This document shows positions 10,168-22,108 of a DNA stretch of 35,808 bases, in pieces (the stretch's first letter is position 1; the number at the start of each line of letters is the position of its first letter). Under the pieces are notes generated by a model, which did not search any database, had not been told where the DNA came from, and saw nothing but the letters and a program-made list of their open reading frames with translations. A program made the translations under genes and the position numbers. This stretch comes from a virus: positions 1 through 35,808 of the IMG/VR virus record IMGVR_UViG_3300025286_000059; one strand, written 5' to 3'.

Positions 10168-11225
10168 TATATTCTCTCCTCAAATAAAGTTCCGACGCCG
10201 CCACCATGGGCAAAGTCACCATTCATTTTTGGTTTTGTTTCCATTAAGTCCTTTAATGCCTTGTCCTGTTTTTGTTCAAGAGTTTCAATTCCAGTTTTTC
10301 TATGGGGTAACCGTATCTCGGTTCCTAATTCTTTCTGGAGACCTTTAATTCCTTCCTCGGCTATGAAAGGATTTCCTCCCTCCGTCACTATTTCTTCTGC
10401 TGCACTAAATCTTCCTGGTCCTTTCCCCCAGTCACCTTCCCCAGGAACTTTTGTTCCTTTTGCTCCCTTATGAAAGGCGAGCCATGAATCGGATGGAATA
10501 CCAAAGGGTTGATCAAGAAGAGGGGAAAGTTTGTAAAAACTTTCTGGATCATTAACCACATTTTCAATAAACTTGTTAATAGAATGAATCTCATCATTAG
10601 GATGAAAGCTTAAACGTGCCTCTCTATTTTTTACTGCTAGATCATGTAAAGCAGGATTGTCAATGAGCTCATCACCTTTGGCAGTAGATGACATACTATT
10701 GCCAGTGCGTTTAAGTACTTTTACACGCTGAAGTAAGTTTTCAAACTGGGCATTGGATAATAGATGCACCTTCTCTAATATTGTATTAATAAATTTATTT
10801 TCGTTTTCGAGGTATTTCTCATGGTCCAAATTAATATGATGGCGGTTTTTATAAGCCCAAGCCTCTGCAACATCATCATAATTCGATAAAGACCCCACTT
10901 CTTTTTGGACCCCTTTCATGAGATCTTCTGGTGTCTCTACAACTCTTAATGGTGGTCGAGTTTTAAACATTTTCAAAATTTCTGGATCAGGAAGACGACG
11001 GAAAAAATAATCCGCATTAGTAAGTTCTTGGCCCAAAATCTTTAAGCGATCAATCCTGTCCCCCATCTCAAACAAGATCTCTTTCGTCAGTCGCTGTGAC
11101 CCAGGATTTTTATATCCAATGTGATCGCGAACAAACTTTCCACCCCGTTTAATAAAGTCGGCAACGTTATCTGCCTTCTGTGCAATCTTTGCAAGTTCTA
11201 GTGCTGCTACTTTCCATATTGACAT
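10167..11225 (-). CDS. Virion-block protein downstream of terL
   Basis: 352 aa, largely helical; N-terminus MSIWKVAALELAKIAQKAD, then a basic segment (IKRGGKFVRDHIGYK). The C-terminus ends in NGDFAHGGGVGTLFEERI, which resembles the GG-x-x-x-L tails of the next two genes. No catalytic motif. The ATG overlaps the terL stop (TAATG). Together with the next two genes it forms a three-gene set between terL and portal linked by this C-terminal motif, so the three products probably act in the same structure (inference). Confidence 0.7.
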   Translation of the reverse strand: MSIWKVAALELAKIAQKADNVADFIKRGGKFVRDHIGYKNPGSQRLTKEILFEMGDRIDRLKILGQELTNADYFFRRLPDPEILKMFKTRPPLRVVETPEDLMKGVQKEVGSLSNYDDVAEAWAYKNRHHINLDHEKYLENENKFINTILEKVHLLSNAQFENLLQRVKVLKRTGNSMSSTAKGDELIDNPALHDLAVKNREARLSFHPNDEIHSINKFIENVVNDPESFYKLSPLLDQPFGIPSDSWLAFHKGAKGTKVPGEGDWGKGPGRFSAAEEIVTEGGNPFIAEEGIKGLQKELGTEIRLPHRKTGIETLEQKQDKALKDLMETKPKMNGDFAHGGGVGTLFEERI

Positions 11226-12703
11226 TAGTAATACTCATATTTTTTATGATAAATAGGCTCATCCTTATAATCTTCTGGATGAGTAAGCAGGCCGCCTTGG
11301 CGAAACCGCATGACCGCTTGGGTCATGGAGTCAACCAAATCGTCATTGTCACCATAAGGAAATGCCGCGCATTCCTCGATGACCTCCTGTGCAAACTTAT
11401 CGTCGGGCGCCCAGATCAATTTACTTTCAAACAAAGGTGCCACAGCGTTTACTCTTGCATGTTTATCATTTCCACGGCTCGGTGTAAAGTTTAAAACAGG
11501 AATTCCCATTTGTCTGAGTTCATGCGTTAAGGGGAGGCCTGAAGCTTTTGCTTCAACCACAACTGATTCAGGCGACCAAAATTTATATAAGGCTAAAGCT
11601 TTACGCCTTAATTCTGGGAATTCCCAGCGTCCTTTCTCTGCATCGACTAAGATAAGCGCGGTGGTCTTTGAGTCTTGGTCCGGGTAGAAAACACCCCAGG
11701 TGGTGATGGCTGAAAAATCAGCCGTTTCTTTTTTCAAAAATGCCGTGTCATAACTTTGTATGACATGGTGGAGTTTAGGAACCTTCCCGCTCCACTTCTG
11801 CCACCACTCTCTCTTGATGATGGCCCCTTCCTCGGCGGTGGGGTTCTGCATCCATTGCGCATTCCATTTCGATACAGGCAACGTTGCTTTTTGTTTTTCC
11901 AGTTCATCCACTTTCCAATATTGTGGCCACAGACTTTTCTTGCTCGGCAAGATGGCAGGGAATTCGATCACGTCCCATTGGTCCGCCTTCGCTTCCTTTT
12001 GGGAACGAAGGAGGAGTCCGGTTAAATCCTTGACGGACCAACGGGTCATCACGAGCACGATTGCCCCACCGGGTTGGAGACGCTGACGGGGTCCCGATGT
12101 ATACCACTCGTATGCCCTCTCTAGTGCTGAAGGGCTCAGCGCGTCTTGTTCTGAATGCGGATCATCAATAATTAAAAGATCTGCACCACGACCGGTAATG
12201 GCACCACCCACACCAGCTGCGTAATACTCACCACCTTGAGCCGTCTCCCAACGACCAGCGGCTTTTGAATCTTCTTGGAGTCTCGTTTTAAAAATTTGTT
12301 GGTACTCAGGTGAATCAATCAGGTTCTTTGCTTTTCTCCCAAAGCGCACTGCTAACTCTCCTGTGTGTGTTGTTTGAATGATCTTGGACCGTGGATCACG
12401 GCCCATCCACCATGAAGGTAAGAGAAAGGATGCAAATTCTGATTTAGTATGACGCGGGGGCATGTTGACAATCAACCGTTTTATTTGACCACGGGCCAAG
12501 GCTTCAAACTTCTTTGCAACAATCTTGTGGTGATGACCTTGAATAAATTCTGGCCACATCATTTTTACAAAATCTAAAAAATTATTTTTTGCATTATTTT
12601 GTTTTGTAACTTCTTGATGCCGGATCCAATACTGCATATACGACTTACGCACATCAAGCGGTAATTTTTTTAATTCCGACAGTGACATATTTTGTAGGTT
12701 CAT
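11225..12703 (-). CDS. terL: Terminase large subunit (packaging ATPase/nuclease)
   Basis: About 492 aa from the ATG at 12703. Walker A-like PPRHTKSE (about 82-89), Walker B LLIIDD (176-181) followed by PHSEQ, coupling motif VLVMTRWS, then an RNase H-like nuclease domain with SYDTAF, VVEAKASGLPL and DDLVDSMTQAVMRF holding the acidic residues. This is the complete ATPase-plus-nuclease order of tailed-phage TerL, which pumps DNA through the portal and cuts concatemers. Start is uncertain: an in-frame ATG at 12802 would add 33 residues read through a terminator-like hairpin, ATG 12721 is also possible, and none has a clear SD. terS is 6.7 kb away on the other strand. Confidence 0.93.
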   Translation of the reverse strand: MNLQNMSLSELKKLPLDVRKSYMQYWIRHQEVTKQNNAKNNFLDFVKMMWPEFIQGHHHKIVAKKFEALARGQIKRLIVNMPPRHTKSEFASFLLPSWWMGRDPRSKIIQTTHTGELAVRFGRKAKNLIDSPEYQQIFKTRLQEDSKAAGRWETAQGGEYYAAGVGGAITGRGADLLIIDDPHSEQDALSPSALERAYEWYTSGPRQRLQPGGAIVLVMTRWSVKDLTGLLLRSQKEAKADQWDVIEFPAILPSKKSLWPQYWKVDELEKQKATLPVSKWNAQWMQNPTAEEGAIIKREWWQKWSGKVPKLHHVIQSYDTAFLKKETADFSAITTWGVFYPDQDSKTTALILVDAEKGRWEFPELRRKALALYKFWSPESVVVEAKASGLPLTHELRQMGIPVLNFTPSRGNDKHARVNAVAPLFESKLIWAPDDKFAQEVIEECAAFPYGDNDDLVDSMTQAVMRFRQGGLLTHPEDYKDEPIYHKKYEYY

Positions 12704-12771
12704 GATAACTTTATAACCCATAAAACTGTGCAAATCAAAGAATAAAGGGTAAAGAAAAGGAACCTTCTTTG

Positions 12772-12794
12772 AAAAAAGGGGGGTCCCCCTCTTT
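12772..12794 (-). terminator. Terminator-like hairpin upstream of terL
   Basis: On the minus strand a stem AAAGAGGGG / CCCCCTTTTTT closes over a three-base loop (four G-C pairs, one mismatch, then G-U and A-U pairs) and ends in a U run. Placed between the 99-aa gene and terL, it could stop early transcripts or act as the terminator partner of the two alternative hairpins at 12827-12877. Confidence 0.5.
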
Positions 12795-12826
12795 GTATCC
12801 ATTCTAATTTGGGCTTGGTCTAGGGA

Positions 12827-12885: not shown

Positions 12886-13185
12886 CTAATCTAATAGGAC
12901 CATGTACTCTTTAACAAAGTGTTGTTGAAACCAATCTAATCCCTTGCGAAGTTTGGTCCAGTCTTCCTTCTCCTCTGCCTTCTTGATGATGTCATAGACT
13001 GCTACTGCGAAATACGGGAGTGAAACAGATTCCCCGCTATATGGATTCTGAACAGTCTCCAATAGGTCATAGTTTTCTCCCCCATAGTTTGCACCGTTGA
13101 ATGGCAGTAGGTATCTCTTCCCTTTCCATTCTACTGAGGTTCTTAGCTTGCCGCTTGTTGCGCCTCTAAATTGTTTTAGTGTCAT
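12886..13185 (-). CDS. Small protein of unknown function in the regulatory region
   Basis: 99 aa: N-terminal beta-rich part (KLRTSVEWKGKRYLLPFNG), then NPYSGESVSLPYFAVAVYDII and a helical C-terminus with Trp residues (LDWFQQHFVKEY). No known motif. It has a strong AAAGGAGG site and its own promoter (13210-13238). Its position as the first gene upstream of the late block and its promoter class suggest early or middle expression. Confidence 0.8.
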   Translation of the reverse strand: MTLKQFRGATSGKLRTSVEWKGKRYLLPFNGANYGGENYDLLETVQNPYSGESVSLPYFAVAVYDIIKKAEEKEDWTKLRKGLDWFQQHFVKEYMVLLD

Positions 13186-13209
13186 AATTCCTCCTTTATT
13201 TAATAACTA

Positions 13210-13238
13210 ATCCTACACTATCCTACATCTAAAGTCAA
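13210..13238 (-). promoter_or_regulatory. Sigma70-like promoter (TTGACT-17-TAGGAT)
   Basis: Minus-strand -35 TTGACT (13233-13238), 17-bp spacer containing a second TAGGATAG, -10 TAGGAT (13210-13215). It reads into the 99-aa gene about 25 bp downstream. The -35 overlaps the last codons of the gene at 13235-13438. Virtually the same sequence precedes two other minus-strand genes. Confidence 0.75.
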
Positions 13239-13438
13239 GCCTTTTCTTGAGGCATAAATACCCCAATAGTTTTATTCTCCTTATTAGGGAAACCAACCAA
13301 CTCATCAAAAAGCTTTTCGTTATGCTCTGATAAACCGATAGCACCCATCGCCTCTTGTATGTCGTCCAATCGATATAACCAATTATCAACACGATGAATA
13401 ACGCCGTCCTTTTCTCCAACAGGTAAAACTTTAACCAT
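13235..13438 (-). CDS. 67-aa protein of unknown function
   Basis: Starts MVKVLPVGEKDGVIHRVDNW and contains YRLDDIQEAMGAIGL and FPNKENKTIGVF. Two ATGs follow AAAGGAGGA directly; the second (13438) has the better spacing. No family recognised. Its 5' leader contains a long stem with a possible pseudoknot and is followed by the same AAAGGAGGAATGATGG sequence as the plus-strand gene at 16445. Confidence 0.75.
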   Translation of the reverse strand: MVKVLPVGEKDGVIHRVDNWLYRLDDIQEAMGAIGLSEHNEKLFDELVGFPNKENKTIGVFMPQEKA

Positions 13439-13453
13439 CATTCCTCCTTTCTT

Positions 13454-13503
13454 GAGCCTTGATGAGTGGGTCAAGGCTCGATTAATTGCACTCCCACCCG
13501 AGC
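13454..13503 (-). promoter_or_regulatory. Structured 5' leader with possible pseudoknot
   Basis: GAGCCTTGA (13454-13462) and TCAAGGCTC (13471-13479) form a perfect 9-bp stem with an 8-base loop. On the minus-strand RNA the loop bases CCCAC can pair with an upstream GTGGG (13493-13497 on the map), an H-type pseudoknot, while GCTCG/CGAGC (13476-13480 with 13499-13503) gives a competing hairpin. The SD follows the stem at once, so folding could control translation of the 67-aa gene. Confidence 0.5.
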
Positions 13504-13513
13504 GTTGAGGAAA

Positions 13514-13780
13514 CTATCGGGCCAATGTACTAGCGAAACCTTTCACTACTTTAGGATATCGCGGCGCAATAACCGTTTCAAGAATGTCTAACGCCTCTTT
13601 TAATACCTTGTCTCTGTTTCCTTTAAATCCATATTGTCTTTTTAAAATTATATATGGATTAGCTTTCCTGGTCATCACAGCACCCGGAAAACTTTTTCTT
13701 AGCTTCTGTTCCATTAATAATGCATGAACCAACTGACAATATCCAAATACTTTAATCTCATCTTCATTATCTAACATCAT
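13514..13780 (-). CDS. 88-aa protein of unknown function
   Basis: Starts MMLDNEDEIKVFGYCQLVHA; helical with a basic central part (EQKLRKSFPGAVMTRKANPY) and C-terminal LEALDILETV-like helix. The ATG at 13780 has GGAGG eight bases upstream and overlaps the stop of the 25-aa membrane miniprotein (TAATG). An upstream in-frame ATG at 13807 would run through the miniprotein and has no SD. Function unknown. Confidence 0.75.
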   Translation of the reverse strand: MMLDNEDEIKVFGYCQLVHALLMEQKLRKSFPGAVMTRKANPYIILKRQYGFKGNRDKVLKEALDILETVIAPRYPKVVKGFASTLAR

Positions 13781-13857
13781 TAATAAGTCCTCCATAAAAA
13801 GATACACAATATAAGAATCAATATTGGTATACTTACTAATATTATTATTGCTTCCAT
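13780..13857 (-). CDS. 25-residue single-span membrane miniprotein
   Basis: Encodes MEAIIILVSIPILILILCIF followed by LWRTY. One acidic residue, a 20-residue aliphatic span and a basic end (positive-inside rule suggests a cytoplasmic C-terminus). AAAGGAGG stands eight bases before the ATG, a promoter (13890-13918) lies just upstream, and the stop overlaps the next ATG. These signals together support a real gene. Function unknown. Confidence 0.7.
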   Translation of the reverse strand: MEAIIILVSIPILILILCIFLWRTY

Positions 13858-13889
13858 AACGTATTCCTCCTTTATTTAGTTATGTCTTA

Positions 13890-13918
13890 ATCCTACACTA
13901 TCCTACATCTAAAGTCAA
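13890..13918 (-). promoter_or_regulatory. Sigma70-like promoter (TTGACT-17-TAGGAT)
   Basis: -35 TTGACT (13913-13918), 17-bp spacer with internal TAGGATAG, -10 TAGGAT (13890-13895), then the AAAGGAGG site of the 25-aa membrane miniprotein. Nearly identical to the promoters at 13210 and 14265. Confidence 0.75.
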
Positions 13919-13924
13919 GAACAA

Positions 13925-14236
13925 TTAATGTTTTGTTTCTTTACCTACATCCTTAATTTGCTCATAAAAGGTTTTCGCCTCATCACTTTCCGATGCCAAG
14001 TTAATCACCTTCTCTAACATTAAAAGAGACATAACCCACAAAGCCTCATCCTGGGTCAAATCTTTTCGGCACTGCTCAAAGCGCCTTAACCTATCCTCCG
14101 CATCCTTGCCGTGATGCACAAACATGCAGCACAATAATACATCCATGCTCAAATGGTCTGGCATTCTTTGATTCCAACCCTTGTAAAAATTGTGTGCCTT
14201 CTCACTTGCGCCTTCAAATATTTTATGTTTAACCAT
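13925..14236 (-). CDS. 103-aa Cys/His-containing helical protein, unknown
   Basis: Starts MVKHKIFEGASEKAHNFYKG and carries VLLCCMFVHHGKDAEDRLRRFEQC in the middle; otherwise helical (DEALWVMSLLMLEKVINLA). The Cys and His residues are not spaced as a zinc ribbon. Strong AAAGGAGG site. It is the leftward arm of a divergent pair whose promoters flank a perfect palindrome (14301-14321), so it is probably co-regulated with the rightward genes. It could itself be the regulator, but no DNA-binding motif is obvious. Confidence 0.8.
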   Translation of the reverse strand: MVKHKIFEGASEKAHNFYKGWNQRMPDHLSMDVLLCCMFVHHGKDAEDRLRRFEQCRKDLTQDEALWVMSLLMLEKVINLASESDEAKTFYEQIKDVGKETKH

Positions 14237-14264
14237 AGTTCCTCCTTTATTAAGTTAATAACTA

Positions 14265-14293
14265 ATCCTATACTATCCTAGATTTAAAGTCAA
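14265..14293 (-). promoter_or_regulatory. Leftward divergent promoter
   Basis: -35 TTGACT (14288-14293), 17-bp spacer, -10 TAGGAT (14265-14270), reading into the 103-aa gene. Its -35 lies 7 bp from the palindrome at 14301-14321. Confidence 0.78.
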
Positions 14294-14300
14294 GGCTTTT

Positions 14301-14321
14301 CTTTTAGAATGATTCTAAAAG
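14301..14321. promoter_or_regulatory. Perfect palindromic operator between divergent promoters
   Basis: Arms CTTTTAGAAT and ATTCTAAAAG around a central G: 10-bp perfect dyad. Exactly 7 bp separate each arm from the -35 box on that side, so one bound dimer would touch both promoters equally. Related dyads occur at 15632, 15661 and 16708. Confidence 0.75.
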
Positions 14322-14328
14322 ATAGTGC

Positions 14329-14357
14329 TTGACATTATCTCCCATAGGGTGTAGGAT
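14329..14357 (+). promoter_or_regulatory. Rightward divergent promoter
   Basis: -35 TTGACA (14329-14334), 17-bp spacer, -10 TAGGAT (14352-14357), followed by ATAAAGGAG before the ATG at 14386. Partner of the leftward promoter at 14265-14293. Confidence 0.78.
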
Positions 14358-14385
14358 AGACTATTAATTAAATAAAGGAGATATT

Positions 14386-14550
14386 ATGTCAAGATTAAAA
14401 GATCATCTAATTGGACTACAAGAAGAATTAGAACAAGAGATTTGTGATAATAAAACTATGACCCTTGAGCAGTTGATAAAGAAATACAGCGACCAAGTGC
14501 CAAAGGCTATCTTAACAGAAATCTGGGAGAATGTAGAAAAAAAGACTTGA
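14386..14550 (+). CDS. 54-aa helical protein, unknown
   Basis: Starts MSRLKDHLIGLQEELEQEIC, then LEQLIKKYSDQVPKAIL and ends EIWENVEKKT. It looks like two helices, possibly a helix-turn-helix-like pair (TLEQLIKKYSD...AILTEIW), but too short to assign. AAAGGAG stands before the ATG and a clear promoter precedes it. Its stop codon overlaps the -35 box of the next promoter. As first gene of the rightward arm it is a candidate small regulator (inference). Confidence 0.75.
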   Translation: MSRLKDHLIGLQEELEQEICDNKTMTLEQLIKKYSDQVPKAILTEIWENVEKKT

Positions 14551-14575
14551 CTTTATATCCCAGATGCTGTAGGAT
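14547..14575 (+). promoter_or_regulatory. Sigma70-like promoter overlapping a stop codon
   Basis: -35 TTGACT (14547-14552) overlaps the TGA of the 54-aa gene; 17-bp spacer; -10 TAGGAT (14570-14575); then ATAAAGGAG and the ATG at 14604. Confidence 0.75.
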
Positions 14576-14603
14576 ATATTATTAATTAAATAAAGGAGAT
14601 ATT

Positions 14604-14975
14604 ATGGATAAAATTGAATTAGAAAATAAAATACATAACAAACCAGTTACTATGACATTTATATCAAAGTCTGGCAAGTTTTGTGTAAGAAATGGAATAG
14701 CAGAAATATCAGAACACCCAAATACAATTATTATTAAAAATCCAGTTACAGAAAAATATGCGTCAGCGTGTGTTGAAAATATTTTTGCAATTCGTGGAAA
14801 AGAAAGTAAAGAGAATTTTTATTTATACACGGATCATGGCGTACTTGAGGAAAGAAAATTAAAACCAATTAAAGAAATTGTGCAAGAGGCGACAAGTATA
14901 GAGGACACGTTAAAAAAATTAATGAAAGAATTGAACGGAGATTTTTTGGTCAAAAACCAATTTGGAGAGAAATAA
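14604..14975 (+). CDS. 123-aa protein of unknown function
   Basis: N-terminal half is beta-rich (KPVTMTFISKSGKFCVRNG, NTIIIKNPVTEKY, NIFAIRG), the C-terminal part helical and basic (RKLKPIKEIVQEATSIEDTL). It recalls a small barrel followed by a helix, but no family is recognised. It has its own promoter and SD, and its stop overlaps the ATG of a 33-aa membrane miniprotein (TAATG). Confidence 0.8.
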   Translation: MDKIELENKIHNKPVTMTFISKSGKFCVRNGIAEISEHPNTIIIKNPVTEKYASACVENIFAIRGKESKENFYLYTDHGVLEERKLKPIKEIVQEATSIEDTLKKLMKELNGDFLVKNQFGEK

Positions 14976-15076
14976 TGACACTGTTAAATATTTTTTCATT
15001 CTTAATTGTAGTTATGCCACTAGCATATTTAATTAGAGAGGTAAACAAATATGAGCGAGAACGTACTAACCGATAA
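14975..15076 (+). CDS. 33-residue membrane miniprotein
   Basis: Encodes MTLLNIFSFLIVVMPLAYLI followed by REVNKYERERTNR: one hydrophobic span of about 18 residues and a charged C-terminal tail. Starts at a TAATG overlap with the 123-aa gene and its 3' end overlaps the next gene by 26 bp. No SD of its own, so coupling is likely. Third small membrane gene in such a setting in this window. Confidence 0.6.
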   Translation: MTLLNIFSFLIVVMPLAYLIREVNKYERERTNR

Positions 15077-15308
15077 CGACTTAAAAAAATTAGAGAAGCT
15101 CGGAGTAAAAATCCGAGCGTGTCTCAGTTGCAATATTAATGATACAGGTGTGCCATGTCGAACAGATAGACTTGAATCGATTAAACTTATGCAGGAATAT
15201 TTACTGGTCCATGACATACTAACCATACCGATAAAGCTACAAGACAAAGAGCTTAACGAAATTATAGAAGAAAAAATTAAAAATAGAGTCAATGAAGAAA
15301 AGAAATAA
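15051..15308 (+). CDS. 85-aa protein, first copy of a tandem paralogue pair
   Basis: Starts MSENVLTDNDLKKLEKLGVK and shares IRACL, NDTGVPC-x-TDRLE, LMQEYL and HDI with the next gene at matching positions (about residues 20-60). The C-terminus (KLQDKELNEIIEEKIKNR) is a charged helix without counterpart. C25/C28 and C38 may bind metal, but the second copy keeps only part of them. AGAGGTAAACAAAT precedes the ATG. Function unknown. Confidence 0.8.
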   Translation: MSENVLTDNDLKKLEKLGVKIRACLSCNINDTGVPCRTDRLESIKLMQEYLLVHDILTIPIKLQDKELNEIIEEKIKNRVNEEKK

Positions 15309-15634
15309 TGAGCAAGAATGTATTAACCGATAAAGACTTAGAAAAATTAGCCAAGCTCGGAGTAAGAATCCGAGCCTGTCTGTGGAATAGGAATGACACC
15401 GGTGTGCCATGTCAAACGGATAGATTAGAGGCGGTCAGACTTATGCAAGAATATTTAACTATTCATGACATAGTATCCGTCCCGTTAATAGAAACATGTG
15501 CTTCCCTAAATGCCCCATCTAAAACAGGCTCAAGCTCAAGCACTCTAACAGTACATGTGTACAACGGTGTTGTGGATCATATTGATGGGCTCCCCAATGG
15601 ATGGCTGTACGACATTGTGGAGCATACTGGGTAG
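15308..15634 (+). CDS. 108-aa protein, second copy of the tandem paralogue pair
   Basis: Residues 1-60 repeat the previous protein (MSKNVLTDKDLEKLAKLGVR, IRACL, NDTGVPCQTDRLE, LMQEYL). The rest is different: a Ser run (TGSSSSTL) encoded by AAGCTC hexamers, then VHVYNGVVDHIDGLPNGWLY. It starts at a TAATG overlap with copy one. The changed C-terminus suggests a duplication followed by replacement of the tail, with the intergenic hexamer repeat caught inside the reading frame. Confidence 0.8.
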   Translation: MSKNVLTDKDLEKLAKLGVRIRACLWNRNDTGVPCQTDRLEAVRLMQEYLTIHDIVSVPLIETCASLNAPSKTGSSSSTLTVHVYNGVVDHIDGLPNGWLYDIVEHTG

Positions 15635-15677
15635 AATGATTCTAAAGCAAGCTCAAGCACTTTAGAATCATTCTAAA
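15632..15677. promoter_or_regulatory. Two AGAAT-N-ATTCT palindromes upstream of a promoter
   Basis: First dyad TAGAAT-G-ATTCTA (15632-15644, overlapping the stop of the paralogue gene); second TTTAGAAT-C-ATTCTAAA (15661-15677). They bracket AAGCTC hexamers and lie just before the -35 at 15687. The core matches the operator at 14301-14321. Confidence 0.65.
15645..15660 (+). repeat. Short AAGCTC hexamer block
   Basis: AAGCAAGCTCAAGCAC between two palindromes. A related block (GGCTCAAGCTCAAGCAC, 15527-15543) is inside the preceding gene. Confidence 0.55.
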
Positions 15678-15686
15678 AGATAATAG

Positions 15687-15714
15687 TTGACATGGGTATA
15701 GGATAGTGTAGGAT
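15687..15714 (+). promoter_or_regulatory. Sigma70-like promoter (TTGACA-16-TAGGAT)
   Basis: -35 TTGACA (15687-15692), 16-bp spacer that contains another TAGGATAG, -10 TAGGAT (15709-15714), then AAATAAAGGAG before the ATG at 15751. Confidence 0.72.
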
Positions 15715-15750
15715 ATACTTTTAACATTAATTAAATAAAGGAGAAATATT

Positions 15751-16371
15751 ATGGGAGTAGATTGTTATGGGTTTAACCCAGTTATAAAAGAAGGTTCAAG
15801 TAAACCAAAAGAACCAAAAGACTTTAGTAAACTTACGGAGAAAGACCAACACGCCTATTGGGACGCTAGGGAGAAATACCAACAAGAGAACAAAGGTGTG
15901 TATTTTAGAAATAGCTGGTGGTACTGGCGACCAATGTGGAAGTTTGTCAATGAGAAATGTAACGACCTGATTAACCAAGAGCTATACGCTAAAGGACATG
16001 GAAATGATGGAGAGGTTGACCAAGAGTTAGCCATTGACATTTCTAAACGCATACTGACCAAAGAAGTTCTTGACGAAGCAAAAAGAAAACAGGAAGAGTA
16101 TGATAAAGACATAAAGCCGAAGAAGAAATTTAACAAGCTTCTTATCAAAGCAGGGCAATTGTATTTTGATGAAATTATTGAGCCAATGTATCCTGATAAA
16201 AAGAACTTTACACCAGCAGACTTGGAAAAACTGGACGAAGATGCTTACAAGAAATGGGCAACCCTTATATTTGATTTGCAATATAGAGAAACCAGCTATC
16301 CGTTTAGCTGGGAAAATGTAAAAGAGTTCGGTGAGTTTTGTGCCCAATCAGGTGGGTTTGAAATTCGCTGA
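15751..16371 (+). CDS. Conserved phage protein of unknown function (MGVDCYGFNP type)
   Basis: 206 aa. The N-terminus MGVDCYGFNP, then GVYFRNSWWYWRPMWKFVN and a C-terminal PFSWENVKEFGEFCAQSGGF form a recognisable pattern seen in hypothetical proteins of many phages (MG-x-D-x-Y-G-x-NP ... YFRN-x-WWWRP). I know no function. The middle (about 95-150) is a charged helical stretch. C5 and the aromatic cluster YFRNSWWYWRP suggest a compact hydrophobic core. Own promoter with two upstream palindromes. Confidence 0.8.
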   Translation: MGVDCYGFNPVIKEGSSKPKEPKDFSKLTEKDQHAYWDAREKYQQENKGVYFRNSWWYWRPMWKFVNEKCNDLINQELYAKGHGNDGEVDQELAIDISKRILTKEVLDEAKRKQEEYDKDIKPKKKFNKLLIKAGQLYFDEIIEPMYPDKKNFTPADLEKLDEDAYKKWATLIFDLQYRETSYPFSWENVKEFGEFCAQSGGFEIR

Positions 16372-16375
16372 AATT

Positions 16376-16432
16376 CTCTGACTAGTAGATGCACGTGCAG
16401 GCAATCTAAGGTACCGCAACTACTAGTCTGAG
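16376..16432 (+). promoter_or_regulatory. Long stem-loop directly before an SD
   Basis: CTC-T-GACTAGTAG (16376-16388) pairs with CTACTAGTC-T-GAG (16420-16432): 12 pairs with a single T/T mismatch. The 31-base loop contains the self-complementary TGCACGTGCA and GGTACC. AAAGGAGG follows the stem immediately. It fills the space between the 206-aa gene and the 61-aa gene. Could be a translational switch, an RNA-processing signal or a protein-binding site. Confidence 0.6.
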
Positions 16433-16444
16433 AAAGGAGGAATG

Positions 16445-16630
16445 ATGGAAGAAGAACTAGAACTAAAAAAAGAATTTAACAAGATCAAAGAAAAGGTTAT
16501 AGAGCTACGCGGGAGCAAGCTTAACCCCTGCAAAGGAGGCAGCCCAATGGTATGCACCTGCAACTCATTCGATAAGATCGTGGATACCATCGAAGATATG
16601 GAAAGAGAAATTCTAACATTTAATCTATGA
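16445..16630 (+). CDS. 61-aa helical protein with a Cys cluster
   Basis: Starts MEEELELKKEFNKIKEKVIE; CKGGSPMVCTC gives three Cys in the middle; ends with a helix TIEDMEREIL. The first ATG (16442) is only one base from the SD; the second (16445) has better spacing. The start region AAAGGAGGAATGATGG is the same as that of the 67-aa gene at 13438. Function unknown; three Cys could bind a metal. Confidence 0.72.
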   Translation: MEEELELKKEFNKIKEKVIELRGSKLNPCKGGSPMVCTCNSFDKIVDTIEDMEREILTFNL

Positions 16631-16663
16631 CCTTGGCCCAAGGACCAGGGGCCGGTGCAGCTG

Positions 16664-16707
16664 AAGCAGGCTCAAGCTCAAGCTCAAGCAGGCGCAAGCT
16701 CAAGCAG
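16664..16707 (+). repeat. AAGCTC/AAGCGC hexamer array
   Basis: Consecutive CTCAAG units interrupted by CAGG and CGCAAG, six or seven units in all. Lies between the 61-aa gene and the palindrome/promoter of the 82-aa gene. Preceded by a small CCTTG/CAAGG hairpin (16631-16643). Confidence 0.7.
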
Positions 16708-16736
16708 TTTAGAATGGTTCTTAGAACCATTCTAAA
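16708..16736. promoter_or_regulatory. 29-bp perfect palindrome upstream of a promoter
   Basis: Arms TTTAGAATGGTTCT and AGAACCATTCTAAA around one T: 14-bp perfect dyad, the longest in the AGAAT/ATTCT family. Ends 9 bp before the -35 at 16746, a position suited to an activator or repressor. The dyad could also form an RNA hairpin. Confidence 0.72.
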
Positions 16737-16745
16737 AGATATTTC

Positions 16746-16774
16746 TTGACCGGAGGATACATATGGGATATTAT
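16746..16774 (+). promoter_or_regulatory. Sigma70-like promoter (TTGACC-17-TATTAT)
   Basis: -35 TTGACC (16746-16751), 17-bp spacer, -10 TATTAT (16769-16774), then AAAAGGAGGAAGATT before the ATG at 16795, leaving a 5' leader of about 15 bases. Confidence 0.68.
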
Positions 16775-16794
16775 GGGATAAAAGGAGGAAGATT

Positions 16795-17043
16795 ATGACA
16801 CCATCAGAAAAAAGAGTTTTGGCTGTGCTCGGAAAGTTCGAGTCGTTCTGGGACCTGGAGCACCGGGTCCAGAGCCACAGATTCCAAAACTTTATGATAA
16901 AGGCACACATCTCGGACGAATTCCGCGGGGAGCTCGACCTACTGCTGGACACGAAGCACGATGAAATGCGAGCGCGACGCGAAATGCGCAGCATCGCCCG
17001 GGCCCAGGATGAGAAGAGCAGCCTTGACCCTGAGATCCACTAA
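16795..17043 (+). CDS. 82-aa helical protein, unknown
   Basis: Starts MTPSEKRVLAVLGKFESFWD; all-helical prediction with a basic C-terminal segment (KHDEMRARREMRSIARAQDE). Clear promoter and SD. More GC-rich than most neighbours. No recognised family. The basic helix may contact nucleic acid, but this is only a composition argument. Confidence 0.72.
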   Translation: MTPSEKRVLAVLGKFESFWDLEHRVQSHRFQNFMIKAHISDEFRGELDLLLDTKHDEMRARREMRSIARAQDEKSSLDPEIH

Positions 17044-17050
17044 CCAAGAT

Positions 17051-17068
17051 CCGGGCCGCAAGGCCCGG
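17051..17068 (+). terminator. GC-rich hairpin after the 82-aa gene
   Basis: CCGGGCC-GCAA-GGCCCGG: perfect 7-bp stem with a GNRA tetraloop, 7 bp after the stop. No U run follows, so it is either a stabilising 3' hairpin or a weak/rho-assisted terminator. Confidence 0.55.
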
Positions 17069-17072
17069 ACAG

Positions 17073-17116
17073 GGACAAGCTCAAGCTCAAGCTGTAAAAA
17101 GCGCAAGCTCAAGCTT
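17073..17116 (+). repeat. AAGCTC/AAGCGC hexamer array merging into a -35 box
   Basis: GGACAAGCTCAAGCTCAAGC, then a spacer, then GCGCAAGCTCAAGCTTGACA: the last unit runs into the -35 TTGACA of the GP88 promoter. Confidence 0.7.
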
Positions 17117-17143
17117 GACATTGACTCTAGGATAATATAGGAT
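17115..17143 (+). promoter_or_regulatory. Promoter of an apparently leaderless gene
   Basis: -35 TTGACA (17115-17120; a second TTGACT follows at once), 17-bp spacer, -10 TAGGAT (17138-17143). The ATGATG start begins 3 bp after the -10, so the usual start point of transcription falls on the A of the second ATG. No SD is present. Confidence 0.7.
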
Positions 17144-17146
17144 ACT

Positions 17147-17782
17147 ATGATGACGACACAGAAACGTTTAAAAGAATTAACCGGTGGCCTGGGAAAACCT
17201 TCAAAGATGCCGGGCCTAAGCTATGGTCTTCCCGCCATTCATTGCAAGACCGGGGCCAAACTGGCCAAGATCGAAGGTACCCCGTGCTTTAACTGTTATG
17301 CATTAAAGGGTAATTATCAATACCCGTCCGTAGCCATGGCCCAAGCTGCAAGGCTCAAGGCGATTGACTCCGATGAATGGGTGGATGCAATGGTGGAATA
17401 TATCCCGCTGTTAACCTCTAAGCTTAAGCGGCCAAAATATTTTAGGTGGCACGATTCAGGGGACGTACAAAGCCGGGCGCATTTTTTAAAAATTATTGCT
17501 ATTGCAAAAGCGCTGCCTGATTTTAAGTTCTGGCTGCCAACACAAGAGCGCGAATTCGTCGCTGGAATTTCCACTCCAGACAATCTCGTGGTCCGTGTGT
17601 CAGGGTCCAAGGTCAACGGCCGCGCTCCAAACTTTCATAATACGTCCACAGTCATAACGGCGCTGTGGGCGCTCCCTCCTGGCGGCTGGGAATGTCCAGC
17701 CCCGAAGCAAAAAAACTATTGCGGCGATTGCCGCGCCTGCTGGGATAAGACGGTCCGGTCTGTAAGTTACCATGAGCATTAA
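17147..17782 (+). CDS. GP88-like cysteine-rich phage protein
   Basis: 211 aa. MPGLSYGLPAIHCKTGAKLA (21-40), GTPCFNCYALKGNY (44-57), YFRWHDSGDVQSRAHF (98-113), FWLPTQERE and a C-terminal CGDCRACWD (192-200) match the gene-product-88 family of phages in order. Cys 33, 47, 50, 192, 195 and 198 could hold one or two iron-sulfur clusters or zinc; the biochemical role is not known. Located downstream of a leaderless-type promoter with no SD; start at 17147 or 17150. Ends close to a convergent gene. Confidence 0.8.
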   Translation: MMTTQKRLKELTGGLGKPSKMPGLSYGLPAIHCKTGAKLAKIEGTPCFNCYALKGNYQYPSVAMAQAARLKAIDSDEWVDAMVEYIPLLTSKLKRPKYFRWHDSGDVQSRAHFLKIIAIAKALPDFKFWLPTQEREFVAGISTPDNLVVRVSGSKVNGRAPNFHNTSTVITALWALPPGGWECPAPKQKNYCGDCRACWDKTVRSVSYHEH

Positions 17783-18687: not shown

Positions 18688-19000
18688 TGGTGTCCTCCTC
18701 ATGTAAACGAACCCAGTCATTAATTCCTTCATGAAGTTTGTTCAGATTCTTTGTTTGAACATATTGCTCTAACGCTTGCGTGACAACCTTTACAATTTCT
18801 TTTGTTGCTTCATCCCCAGATTGGACTGGAATCTCAAATTTAAATTTAGACTTCCCTTTAACAACCATCTCATTTAGACGAATACGGAGACGCCCATTAA
18901 TGCGTTGGTGATCTTGATTAATCTGTTTCAAATTATTAATCTCGATACGCAGTTCCCTGATGGTATCTAATAGCTGTTGGCATTTTAGTTTGTAATCCAT
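18674..19000 (-). CDS. 108-aa coiled-coil protein, unknown
   Basis: Residues 1-45 form a clear heptad-type helix (LLDTIRELRIEINNLKQIN), followed by KSKFKFEIPVQSG and a second helix (VVTQALEQYVQTKNLNKL). Probably a dimeric coiled coil. Start overlaps the end of the NUMOD3 gene by 16 bp; SD weak (GAGAAAGAA). Function unknown. Confidence 0.72.
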   Translation of the reverse strand: MDYKLKCQQLLDTIRELRIEINNLKQINQDHQRINGRLRIRLNEMVVKGKSKFKFEIPVQSGDEATKEIVKVVTQALEQYVQTKNLNKLHEGINDWVRLHEEDTNGKT

Positions 19001-19170
19001 TTCTTTCTCAAACTCAAAGCTTCAGACATTTTTCTCCTTGTTTCCGCGGAAAGTCTTGCCCCTTTCCAAGCTTCAGACAGTTTTCTTTTATGTTCTGGAG
19101 AGAGGGTTCTTCTTCTAATAGCTTCAGACATTTTTCTTCTTGTTTCTTCAGAATGTTTACCTGTATTCAT
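18985..19170 (-). CDS. Stand-alone NUMOD3-repeat protein (homing endonuclease remnant)
   Basis: 61 aa made of three copies of the NUMOD3 pattern: SEETRRKMSEA, SPEHKRKLSEAWKG, SAETRRKMSEA. These helical DNA-contact modules normally follow a GIY-YIG or HNH nuclease domain, as in the 249-codon gene at 21362; here no nuclease domain precedes them. GAGGT lies 8 bases before the ATG, so it looks translated. Either a decayed endonuclease or a free DNA-binding peptide. Confidence 0.75.
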   Translation of the reverse strand: MNTGKHSEETRRKMSEAIRRRTLSPEHKRKLSEAWKGARLSAETRRKMSEALSLRKKWITN

Positions 19171-19398: not shown

Positions 19399-19432
19399 AT
19401 GCCGGCCATTTCGTCCACGACGTGGTCGGCAT
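19399..19432 (+). promoter_or_regulatory. Leader hairpin before the terS SD
   Basis: ATGCCGGCCA pairs with TGGTCGGCAT (10 pairs, one G-U) and is capped by CGTC-CAC-GACG. AAGGAG follows 7 bases later. Third case in the window of a strong stem just before a ribosome site. Confidence 0.55.
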
Positions 19433-19448
19433 TACTATAAGGAGATAT

Positions 19449-19985
19449 ATGGGAATTCCAAAAAGACTTACAGAAAAACAAATGAAATTTGCCCAACTGT
19501 TAGTACACAGTGAGGGTGAAAAGACACCTACAGAATGTGCTGTCGAGGCAGGCTATGACAAAGGTTCTGCATCTGTTAGGGCATCAGAACTACGTAACCC
19601 AAAAATATATCCTCTCGTTGTAAAGTATGCAGGAGATCTTAGAGAAGAAGTACACAAAAAATATGCTATTGATTTTGACAGACACATATCAAAGCTTGCG
19701 CGTATTAGGGATAAAGCCTTAGACTCTAAAGCATGGTCCGCTGCTGTTAATGCAGAAGTAGCACGAGGAAAGGCTGCTGGACTTTATATTGAACAAAAGA
19801 TTATTCGTACCGGTAAGCTCGAGGATATGACACAACAAGAACTAGAGTCAAAGATGCAACAGATCATTGATGATCATAGTGTTATTCTTCAGGGAATACC
19901 TGTCAAACAAATTAAAAAAGAGATGAAGAAAAAGCGACTTAAAAGACCGCTATCAAAATTACCAAAACAATTACCACACCAATAA
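19449..19985 (+). CDS. terS: Terminase small subunit
   Basis: 178 aa. LTEKQMKFAQLLV, TPTECAVEAGYDKGSASVRASEL and LRNPKIYPLV form the helix-turn-helix of the Terminase_2-type small subunits, which bind the packaging site and feed DNA to TerL. A helical middle (oligomerisation) and a basic tail (KKEMKKKRLKRPLSKLPKQ) follow. The ATG at 19449 is set by AAGGAGATAT. It is on the plus strand while terL is on the minus strand 6.7 kb away, an unusual split; the own promoter fits separate expression. Confidence 0.82.
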   Translation: MGIPKRLTEKQMKFAQLLVHSEGEKTPTECAVEAGYDKGSASVRASELRNPKIYPLVVKYAGDLREEVHKKYAIDFDRHISKLARIRDKALDSKAWSAAVNAEVARGKAAGLYIEQKIIRTGKLEDMTQQELESKMQQIIDDHSVILQGIPVKQIKKEMKKKRLKRPLSKLPKQLPHQ

Positions 19986-20743: not shown

Positions 20744-21372
20744 TTTTTTTCATGAGCCCCTAGTCTTTCCAAAAAGGCATGCTTGGCCCAGCCCAGACCG
20801 GCCCCTTCAATCTTAAAGGTCTGTAGAAGTAGGTCTTTGGTACAGACCAGAATTACGGCTTGTTCTATATGTGTGTTGAAATTGTGGTCATGTGCCATAG
20901 CGTAGGCTGCAGCTTGTAGATAGTAATCCTCAACCCATTCAAGCTTCTTGGGCCGATTTGCTTGCTTAAAGTCTATAACCGTCTCTTTACCATTATAAAT
21001 CCCTAAAAGGTCTGAATAGCCATGATAAAGATCTGGGTACACCAGATGTGATTCAAGTCCCCAGATCTCCTCTAAGGGCGTTAAACCGATATCTAAGATC
21101 CGACCAGCCATGGGCCTTGCTTCTTGGCCCACGGGCGTTAGATCCTCATAACCATGGCCCTTGAGCCTTGCCTCAATCATCTTGTGCATAGCCTTCCCCC
21201 TATTAGCACTCTCCTCCATGATCCGCTTGGCCTCCTCCTCGCCTACTCTCTTTCTCCATGTCTCAAGACCACTATCATCCTTAGTCCCGGACAAGATCCG
21301 CGTTACAGAAGGCAAAGCCTCATCCCTCACGGACCACTGACCATAGTTAAATTTGTCTAGGTTAAGTTTCAC
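20734..21372 (-). CDS. RecB/Cas4-like PD-(D/E)xK exonuclease
   Basis: 212 aa. NRGKAMHKMIE (57-67) with His63, then LESHLVYPDLYHGYSDLLG with D121, IDFKQA (133-138: D134-F-K136) and the QxxxY-type motif YYLQAAAYA (150-158). This is the full set of the RecB-family nuclease fold; phage members act as 5' exonucleases in recombination or host-DNA breakdown. GTG start at 21372 with GGAGGAATC just before it; overlaps the upstream homing gene by 11 bp. Confidence 0.85.
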   Translation of the reverse strand: MKLNLDKFNYGQWSVRDEALPSVTRILSGTKDDSGLETWRKRVGEEEAKRIMEESANRGKAMHKMIEARLKGHGYEDLTPVGQEARPMAGRILDIGLTPLEEIWGLESHLVYPDLYHGYSDLLGIYNGKETVIDFKQANRPKKLEWVEDYYLQAAAYAMAHDHNFNTHIEQAVILVCTKDLLLQTFKIEGAGLGWAKHAFLERLGAHEKNPI

Positions 21373-22108
21373 GATTCCTCCGTTTTGTTTCTACCATTTT
21401 TCTCACCACTTCCGGTCTTTTCATTGGATTATTAATAGAAAATTTTCTTCTTGTTTCTGCAGAGGGTGGCGGTCTTCTTTTCCCAGCTTCTGCCATTTTT
21501 CTTCTTGTTTCTGTAGAAAAGGTTTTTCCATAATTAGGATTCTTTTCTCCTTCCTTAGCTTCACCCATTTTTCTTTTTGTCTCTGCAGACTTCTTTACGC
21601 CTTTCATAGCTTCACCTATTTTTCTTCTTGTTTCTGCAGAAATTATTTTCCCTTTATGAGCTTCACCCATTTTTCTTTTTGTCTCTGCAGACTTCGTTTT
21701 TCCATAATTATGATTCTTTTCTCCGCTCATAGCTTCACCTATTTTTCTTCTCACTTCCGGCCTTTTTGCAGGATTATCCTCTCCGAACATGGGGGGAGGA
21801 GGCCATGATCCACATTTATTCACATAGCGATTACTCTCTACAGCATACCCATCAAGATGACGTTTTTCCTCTTTCAGTACCTCTTCTTCAGTTCCCGTCA
21901 TAAGAATTTTTATGATGTAGTCATCAGGATTTTTTTTAAAAGATTTTTCATACTTGCTATCTTTCTCAAAAGGACCGCTCGAGAAATAGACTTTACCAAT
22001 GTCCTGTAAAGGAGGACACTCATTCGCCCGGCGTGAACCGACATACCTTCTTGTCGTGATTTTATGCATCAACCAATAGACGTATGGACTAATTAAGTTT
22101 AGCTTCAC
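21362..22108 (-). CDS. GIY-YIG endonuclease with NUMOD3 repeats
   Basis: 248 aa. YVYWLMHKITTRRYVGSRR (9-27) is the GIY-YIG motif in a Y-V-Y...Y-V-G form with R26; HLDGYAVESNRYVNKCG continues the domain. From residue about 115 at least five NUMOD3 units follow (RPEVRRKIGEAMSG, SAETKRKMGEAHKG, SAETRRKIGEAMKG, SAETKRKMGEAKEG, STETRRKMAEAGK). Domain order equals free-standing phage homing endonucleases, which cut intron-less or intein-less alleles to spread. GTG start (22108) overlaps the HNH gene. Flanking sequences at both ends are similar (see findings). Confidence 0.85.
   Translation of the reverse strand: MKLNLISPYVYWLMHKITTRRYVGSRRANECPPLQDIGKVYFSSGPFEKDSKYEKSFKKNPDDYIIKILMTGTEEEVLKEEKRHLDGYAVESNRYVNKCGSWPPPPMFGEDNPAKRPEVRRKIGEAMSGEKNHNYGKTKSAETKRKMGEAHKGKIISAETRRKIGEAMKGVKKSAETKRKMGEAKEGEKNPNYGKTFSTETRRKMAEAGKRRPPPSAETRRKFSINNPMKRPEVVRKMVETKRRNRET

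Follow-up and report, generated by a model that had tools for sequence, protein, structure and literature searches.

A candidate operator for the host iron regulator Irr at four promoters of an HTVC023P-type marine phage

A symmetric dyad between divergent promoters

The stretch of DNA analysed here (the window) is 35,808 bases long and has a GC content of 39.7%. It comes from an uncultured tailed phage and is incomplete, covering about 36 kb where 55-60 kb would be expected. The region of interest lies between the genes for the small terminase (19422-19985, a weak Terminase_2 match) and the large terminase (11225-12802) and is made up of small genes of unknown function. Seven copies of a TTGAC-N16/17-TAGGAT promoter occur there inside 4 kb, and they are alike in the flanking Shine-Dalgarno region too (Table 1).

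Two of these promoters point away from each other. An earlier note on this DNA had described them as near-identical and sigma70-like, with a palindrome exactly midway, and TTGAC-N17-TAGGAT on both sides confirms that description. It had also given the palindrome 10-bp arms (14301-14321), each 7 bp from a -35 element. Both figures are correct, the first being slightly understated: TCTTTTAGAATGATTCTAAAAGA at 14300-14322 is a perfect dyad with 11-bp arms and a single-nucleotide centre at 14311. Inside it, at 14303-14319, is a 17-bp core of Irr type, TTTAGAATGATTCTAAA. The symmetry reaches beyond the dyad: 14234-14310 and 14312-14388, arms of 77 nt, show 70% complementarity, each promoter unit being an inverted copy of the other. 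For the first ORFs of the two units, of 103 and 54 aa, no match in Pfam or PHROGs and no family were found.

The same box stands before two further promoters of the window, so that there are four box-bearing promoters in all. The 17-bp box stops 9 bp short of the -35 at each of them, and the distance from its centre to the -35 is always 18 nt (14311 to 14293, 14311 to 14329, 15669 to 15687 and 16728 to 16746). At least four promoters of the same family have no box.

Table 1. Promoters, boxes and first genes around the dyad
Feature	Position	Strand	Remarks
Box-free promoter, same family	13210..13238	-	
Box-free promoter, same family	13890..13918	-	
103-aa ORF, first gene of leftward promoter	13925..14236	-	AGGAGG ribosome-binding site
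Leftward sigma70-like promoter	14265..14293	-	TTGACT 14293-14288, N17, TAGGAT 14270-14265; -35 start 18 nt from box centre
Rightward sigma70-like promoter	14329..14357	+	TTGACA 14329-14334, N17, TAGGAT 14352-14357; -35 start 18 nt from box centre
54-aa ORF, first gene of rightward promoter	14386..14550	+	Ribosome-binding site upstream
Box-free promoter, same family (internal control)	14547..14575	+	
Degenerate extra box GGTAGAATGATTCTAAA	15630..15646		14/16; overlaps end of gene 15308-15634
Second perfect box TTTAGAATCATTCTAAA	15661..15677		Centre 15669
Promoter TTGACA-N16-TAGGAT	15687..15714	+	-35 18 nt from second box centre; before 206-aa gene 15751-16371
Overlapping box pair TTTAGAATGGTTCTTAGAACCATTCTAAA	16708..16736		Right-hand box centre 16728
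Promoter TTGACC-N17-TATTAT	16746..16774	+	-35 18 nt from right-hand overlapping box centre; before 82-aa gene 16795-17043
Box-free promoter, same family	17115..17143	+	Before GP88-family gene 17147-17782 (PF17338)

The dyad is more than a chance feature. Scored against TTTAGAATNATTCTAAA, the window gives two matches of 16/16 (14303 and 15661) and two of 14/16; simulating the window 100 times with a first-order Markov model gave 14/16 at best. The half-site TTAGAAT, which forms a perfect 7-1-7 site twice in the window, comes first among 140 half-sites of the same composition. Hence 14300-14322 looks like a real regulatory dyad. Its being a terminator or structured RNA was considered and rejected, with no Rfam match and no T-run after the dyad; the extended copy at 16708 was called terminator-like by the scan, yet it runs directly into a promoter.

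Several other features of the same region may be mentioned. A doubled AGGATA with a 10-bp period (TAGGATAGTGTAGGAT) is frequent in the promoter family (window 13210-17143, locus L093 at about 16880-17240, and HTVC027P) and could represent either an additional regulatory site or a -10 feature specific to phages. Arrays of a 7-bp CAAGC/GCTTG repeat adjoin boxes and promoters in the window (about 15640-15660, 16680-16707 and 17090-17115) and are also present in many relatives (L016, L056, L065, L067, L093 and HTVC027P). Genes 15051-15308 and 15308-15634 are adjacent, and their N-termini (MSENVLTDNDLKKLEKLGVKIRACL / MSKNVLTDKDLEKLAKLGVRIRACL) represent a tandem duplication. The gene behind the second box (15751-16371), marked by the motif MGVDCYG, has homologues in HTVC023P (13077-13670, 32%) and in the distant Actinomycetia phage DSL-LC01; in L100 and L151, MGLDMYA genes whose start is similar are preceded by boxes.

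The phage group and the spread of the box

Judged by TerL, by the polymerase and by the primase-helicase-polymerase module, the window phage is a member of the HTVC023P-type pelagiphage group. Its TerL is 69% identical to that of the Pelagibacter phage HTVC027P and 54% to that of HTVC023P, the corresponding values for DNA polymerase A are 57% and 53%, and the window has primase, helicase and polymerase domains as these two phages do. The GC content of both (35-36%) is below that of the window, a point that we count against the reading as a host Irr operator developed below. Since Pelagibacter is the host of the isolates nearest in terminase and polymerase, the window phage probably infects an alphaproteobacterium. 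There is no tRNA in the window to serve as a host clue, and no nucleotide relatives were found among GenBank phages. Elsewhere the window codes for three 2OG-Fe(II) oxygenases, which are iron-dependent enzymes (PF13759; 23221-23799, 26095-26925 and 27569-28195), and for a SET-domain protein (PF00856; 22619-22978). Homing-endonuclease-like repeats are seen in genes 18985-19170 and 21362-22108, the former giving a PHROG homing endonuclease match when scanned.

In a set of 80 viral loci (664 kb) picked by terminase similarity only, TTAGAAT again ranks first of 140 half-sites of the same composition; it occurs there in 6 perfect copies, the mean being 0.07. When all IMG/VR contigs were searched for a box followed by TTGACA within 30 bp, at least 119 stretches were obtained, compared to 6 for a permuted dyad. 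If TTAGAANNNTTCTAA alone is required, the three free bases are TNA in more than half of the cases, which is what a 7-1-7 site demands. The setting can also be the same as in the window: in L016, L048, L056 and L067 a box lies 2-4 kb upstream of the terminase, and the promoter is directed away from it. L067 has an overlapping box pair 10 bp from TTGACA and about 3.8 kb from the terminase, the latter distance being 3.9 kb in the window.

The earlier note proposed a search of relatives for a dyad conserved at the same spacing. The dyad does recur with TTGAC promoters, but the spacing does not hold, as the box lies 2 to 30 bp from the -35 in distant phages (the search stopped at 30). It is the pair of box and promoter that is conserved and not the divergent pair, for the symmetric divergent arrangement was found, across the fetched viral loci, only in the window and in the near-identical contig L012. 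In two loci, L122 and L134, TTGAC is present on both sides of a box near CCGATACATAGAA-like repeat arrays; this is possibly a different operator.

The genes linked to the boxes are mostly different small ORFs. Two kinds recur. One encodes a relative of HTVC027P gp35 and the other a GP88-family protein; the promoter before the window homologue of the latter (17147-17782) has no box, but likely homologues of this gene in other phages follow one. In HTVC027P the organization is similarly divergent, with the same promoter, TTGACA-N17-TAGGAT, before gp34, and the box is absent. None was found at 0-1 mismatches in the whole records of HTVC027P and HTVC023P, nor in DSL-LC04, while 023Pt_psg01 has one site at 1 mismatch. 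As HTVC027P and HTVC023P lack the site, it is dispensable, which we likewise count against its being an Irr operator. Some box-bearing phages have Bacteroidota-like promoters and, among the matches listed, a Polaribacter box stands before a feoB-like gene, which suggests that the reader in that group is another Fur-family protein.

Could the dyad nevertheless be a neutral, AT-rich inverted repeat with no protein partner? An inverted duplication of promoters would by itself yield some symmetry, and the arms are indeed 70% complementary. We regard this as very improbable in view of the first rank among 140 half-sites in relatives, the 119 or more stretches against 6 in IMG/VR and the four equal spacings.

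The same box beside iron genes of bacteria

TTAGAAT-N-ATTCTAA has the 7-1-7 form of Fur-family sites. From its sequence, the dyad is best read as an Irr box (iron control element, ICE) of Alphaproteobacteria. The Irr consensus that we used, based on published Irr work and on the cellular loci read in this analysis, is TTAGAA-N3-TTCTAA with extended arms TTTAGAA-N3-TTCTAAA, and the sites at 14303 and 15661 agree with it at 16/16. The location also agrees with that of an Irr box, as the boxes are at four TTGAC promoters.

A scan for GTTTAGAATNATTCTAAAC, with one genome per species, gave among the matches listed mostly Alphaproteobacteria, together with a few Flavobacteriales and others. The genes adjoining these matches, named by reading their sequences, encode, among the matches listed, an MbfA-like membrane ferritin (30 loci), an IrpA-like protein (23), the iron ABC transporter afuA (6), nfuA (3) and rubrerythrin (3). 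Of these, mbfA is an experimentally shown Irr target (PMC3413700, PMC7540006), and a change of TTCTAA to AGCTTC in its ICE derepresses it (PMC7540006). In Rhodobacter, Irr binds sites 40-50 nt upstream of mapped starts (PMC3413700, PMC6956336).

The likeness is closest in SAR11. The exact 17-mer is present in 21 of 117 Pelagibacterales genomes, and in 18 of the 21 it is beside an irr-like gene and/or rubrerythrin. Each of the 30 irr loci that were read has a TTAGAA[TC]GATTCTAA box between irr and rubrerythrin, with the TTGAC -35 of rubrerythrin following at 3-4 bp; the commonest form of this SAR11 box is identical to the window core. The best NCBIfam matches of the SAR11 irr protein are IrrA and Irr, the 110-aa piece scoring under their cut-offs. 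Genes of irr type are found in most of the 117 genomes, where weak matches represent other Fur paralogues.

Thus the window and the cellular Irr boxes have in common the 17-bp sequence, the 7-1-7 symmetry and a sigma70-like promoter alongside. They differ in that the window box is on a phage and between divergent promoters, and in that it is 6 bp further from the -35 than the SAR11 rubrerythrin box. They also differ at the centre base, G or C being common in phage boxes. In a comparison of viral loci L013-L452 with cellular loci L217-L296, the centre is G/C in 118 of 166 viral boxes, whereas it is A/T in 68 of 71 rhizobial ones and mostly G in SAR11. The outer A at -3, absent from the central box of the window, is present in 188 of 272 viral sites (69%) and 116 of 146 cellular sites (79%). 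We count two of these differences, the closer spacing in SAR11 and the rhizobial A/T centre, against the reading as an Irr operator. A G/C centre creates GANTC, and CcrM methylation was entertained as the main reason for the dyad; this idea was dropped because phages of Bacteroidota type show the same centre bias (10/14).

Potential readers of the box and its potential role

What protein might recognize the box? Searches for a Fur-family gene in the window, in the fetched viral ORFs and in 30 box-bearing viral records gave none. (A 52-aa Fur-family match in L151, with E of 0.008, was judged to be noise.) Because the box-bearing contigs that were searched yielded no such gene, the likeliest reader is the Irr of the host. 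The earlier note envisaged a phage genetic switch or an early/late control hub, with the small proteins encoded here as potential ligands of the dyad. This part of it is not supported: the small proteins beside the dyad match no DNA-binding family in Pfam or PHROGs, the dyad is of a host type, and the box-bearing promoters are alike and not opposed. The lambda divergent switch also has its operator between divergent promoters. However, it works with two opposed promoters of different occupancy and a phage regulator gene beside the operator, while the window has like promoters equidistant from one symmetric site, and no phage repressor gene was found alongside.

A regulator encoded by the phage might still read the dyad, which would then be an ordinary phage operator resembling an Irr box by chance. 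Several boxes are clustered among many small genes of unknown function, and the window is only a fragment, so genes are missing from it. Yet the same site is found in many different phages as well as at cellular iron genes beside irr, and the lack of Fur-family genes in all 30 box-bearing records and of DNA-binding families among the neighbours makes such a regulator improbable.

We consider it reasonably likely that the dyad is an operator for host Irr, acting at four promoters of this HTVC023P-type phage. If this is correct, the scheme may be as follows. The four box-bearing promoters would serve small genes that are probably involved in host takeover. In cells poor in iron or heme, Irr would be stable and bind the box; upon a rise in heme it would be released or degraded. 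A symmetric box at the same distance from either -35 element would allow one Irr dimer to act on both units. Here the suggestion of the earlier note that a single regulator might switch leftward and rightward genes together finds support. The two units would be coupled to the same signal whether Irr activates or represses, and the iron state of the host may set transcription of the small phage genes. That the host has Irr and that Irr binds the phage copies we infer, as we do the time of expression and the sign of the effect.

Regarding this sign, Irr reportedly acts in both directions (Rudolph et al. 2006). With a transcription start about 7 nt after the -10, the box centre would be at about -53/-54 at all four promoters. 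The equal spacing there and the position of the box outside the -35 incline us modestly towards activation by contact with RNA polymerase over a block by overlap. Caution is called for by the role of Irr as a repressor at mbfA and by the spacing in other phages, which varies in a way that suits an activator less well. Irr or another host Fur-family protein might instead repress both promoters, keeping early transcription low when the cell is short of iron and letting it rise when heme and iron are plentiful. Irr is described as repressing at low iron (PMC3413700), and the box of mbfA serves repression (PMC7540006). Moreover, the SAR11 box is 3 bp from the -35, a distance at which a dimer on the box would overlap with polymerase. 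On the other hand, the phage box ends 9 bp before the -35, equally at four sites, which is unusual for simple occlusion, and we think repression of this kind rather unlikely.

An iron link is plausible in the pelagiphage group, because infection by HTVC027P raises expression of host irr and iron-uptake genes (PMC12753301) and because pelagiphages carry iron enzymes and ferrochelatases (PMC9599517). The former observation might also be taken to mean that the boxes are decoys: multiplied phage genomes, with up to four to five boxes per phage, would soak up Irr and deregulate host iron genes, any effect on phage promoters being secondary. Decoys, though, have no need to be tied to promoters as these boxes are, and HTVC027P is without the box, so its effect on irr must have another cause. 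We find this possibility more doubtful still than that of a phage-encoded regulator.

The reading as an operator for host Irr can be compared with known systems. Host Fur or DtxR exerts iron control over phage-borne toxin promoters, where a host metalloregulator likewise acts on a phage-borne promoter; those are single cargo genes of prophages, in contrast to the promoter set of a probably lytic marine phage. The closer parallel is with the PhoB/Pho boxes of cyanophages (P-SSM2 pstS; S-PM2d, PMC10976474), in which the operator of a host nutrient-stress regulator is likewise on a marine phage promoter. There the nutrient is phosphate and the regulator a two-component activator; here it would be iron and a Fur-family protein. 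Use of PhoB was demonstrated by gel shift and RNA-seq, whereas use of Irr by the window phage is predicted from sequence, and it should be kept in mind that not all host-regulator boxes predicted in a cyanophage were bound in gel shifts (PMC10976474). The strategy of a marine phage exploiting a nutrient regulator of its host is a known one, and an Irr operator would be a new version of it. No report of Irr boxes in phages was found in the literature searched, which is not proof that there is none.

A broader suggestion can be made more tentatively, and we stop somewhat short of favouring it: many marine phages, of alphaproteobacteria and probably also of Bacteroidota, may have placed a host Irr or Fur-family box at promoters of small takeover genes, so that host iron or heme gates the phage programme. 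If true, this would be an equivalent for iron of the PhoB system of cyanophages, present in many phage lineages. Iron limits growth over much of the ocean. If the iron sensor of the host acted directly on the DNA of phage promoters, this would offer a mechanism by which iron supply alters infection. SAR11 phages of HTVC023P type are described as widespread (PMC9599517), and the early genes of HTVC027P are all of unknown function (PMC12753301). Irr would be a candidate regulator of early genes in this group.
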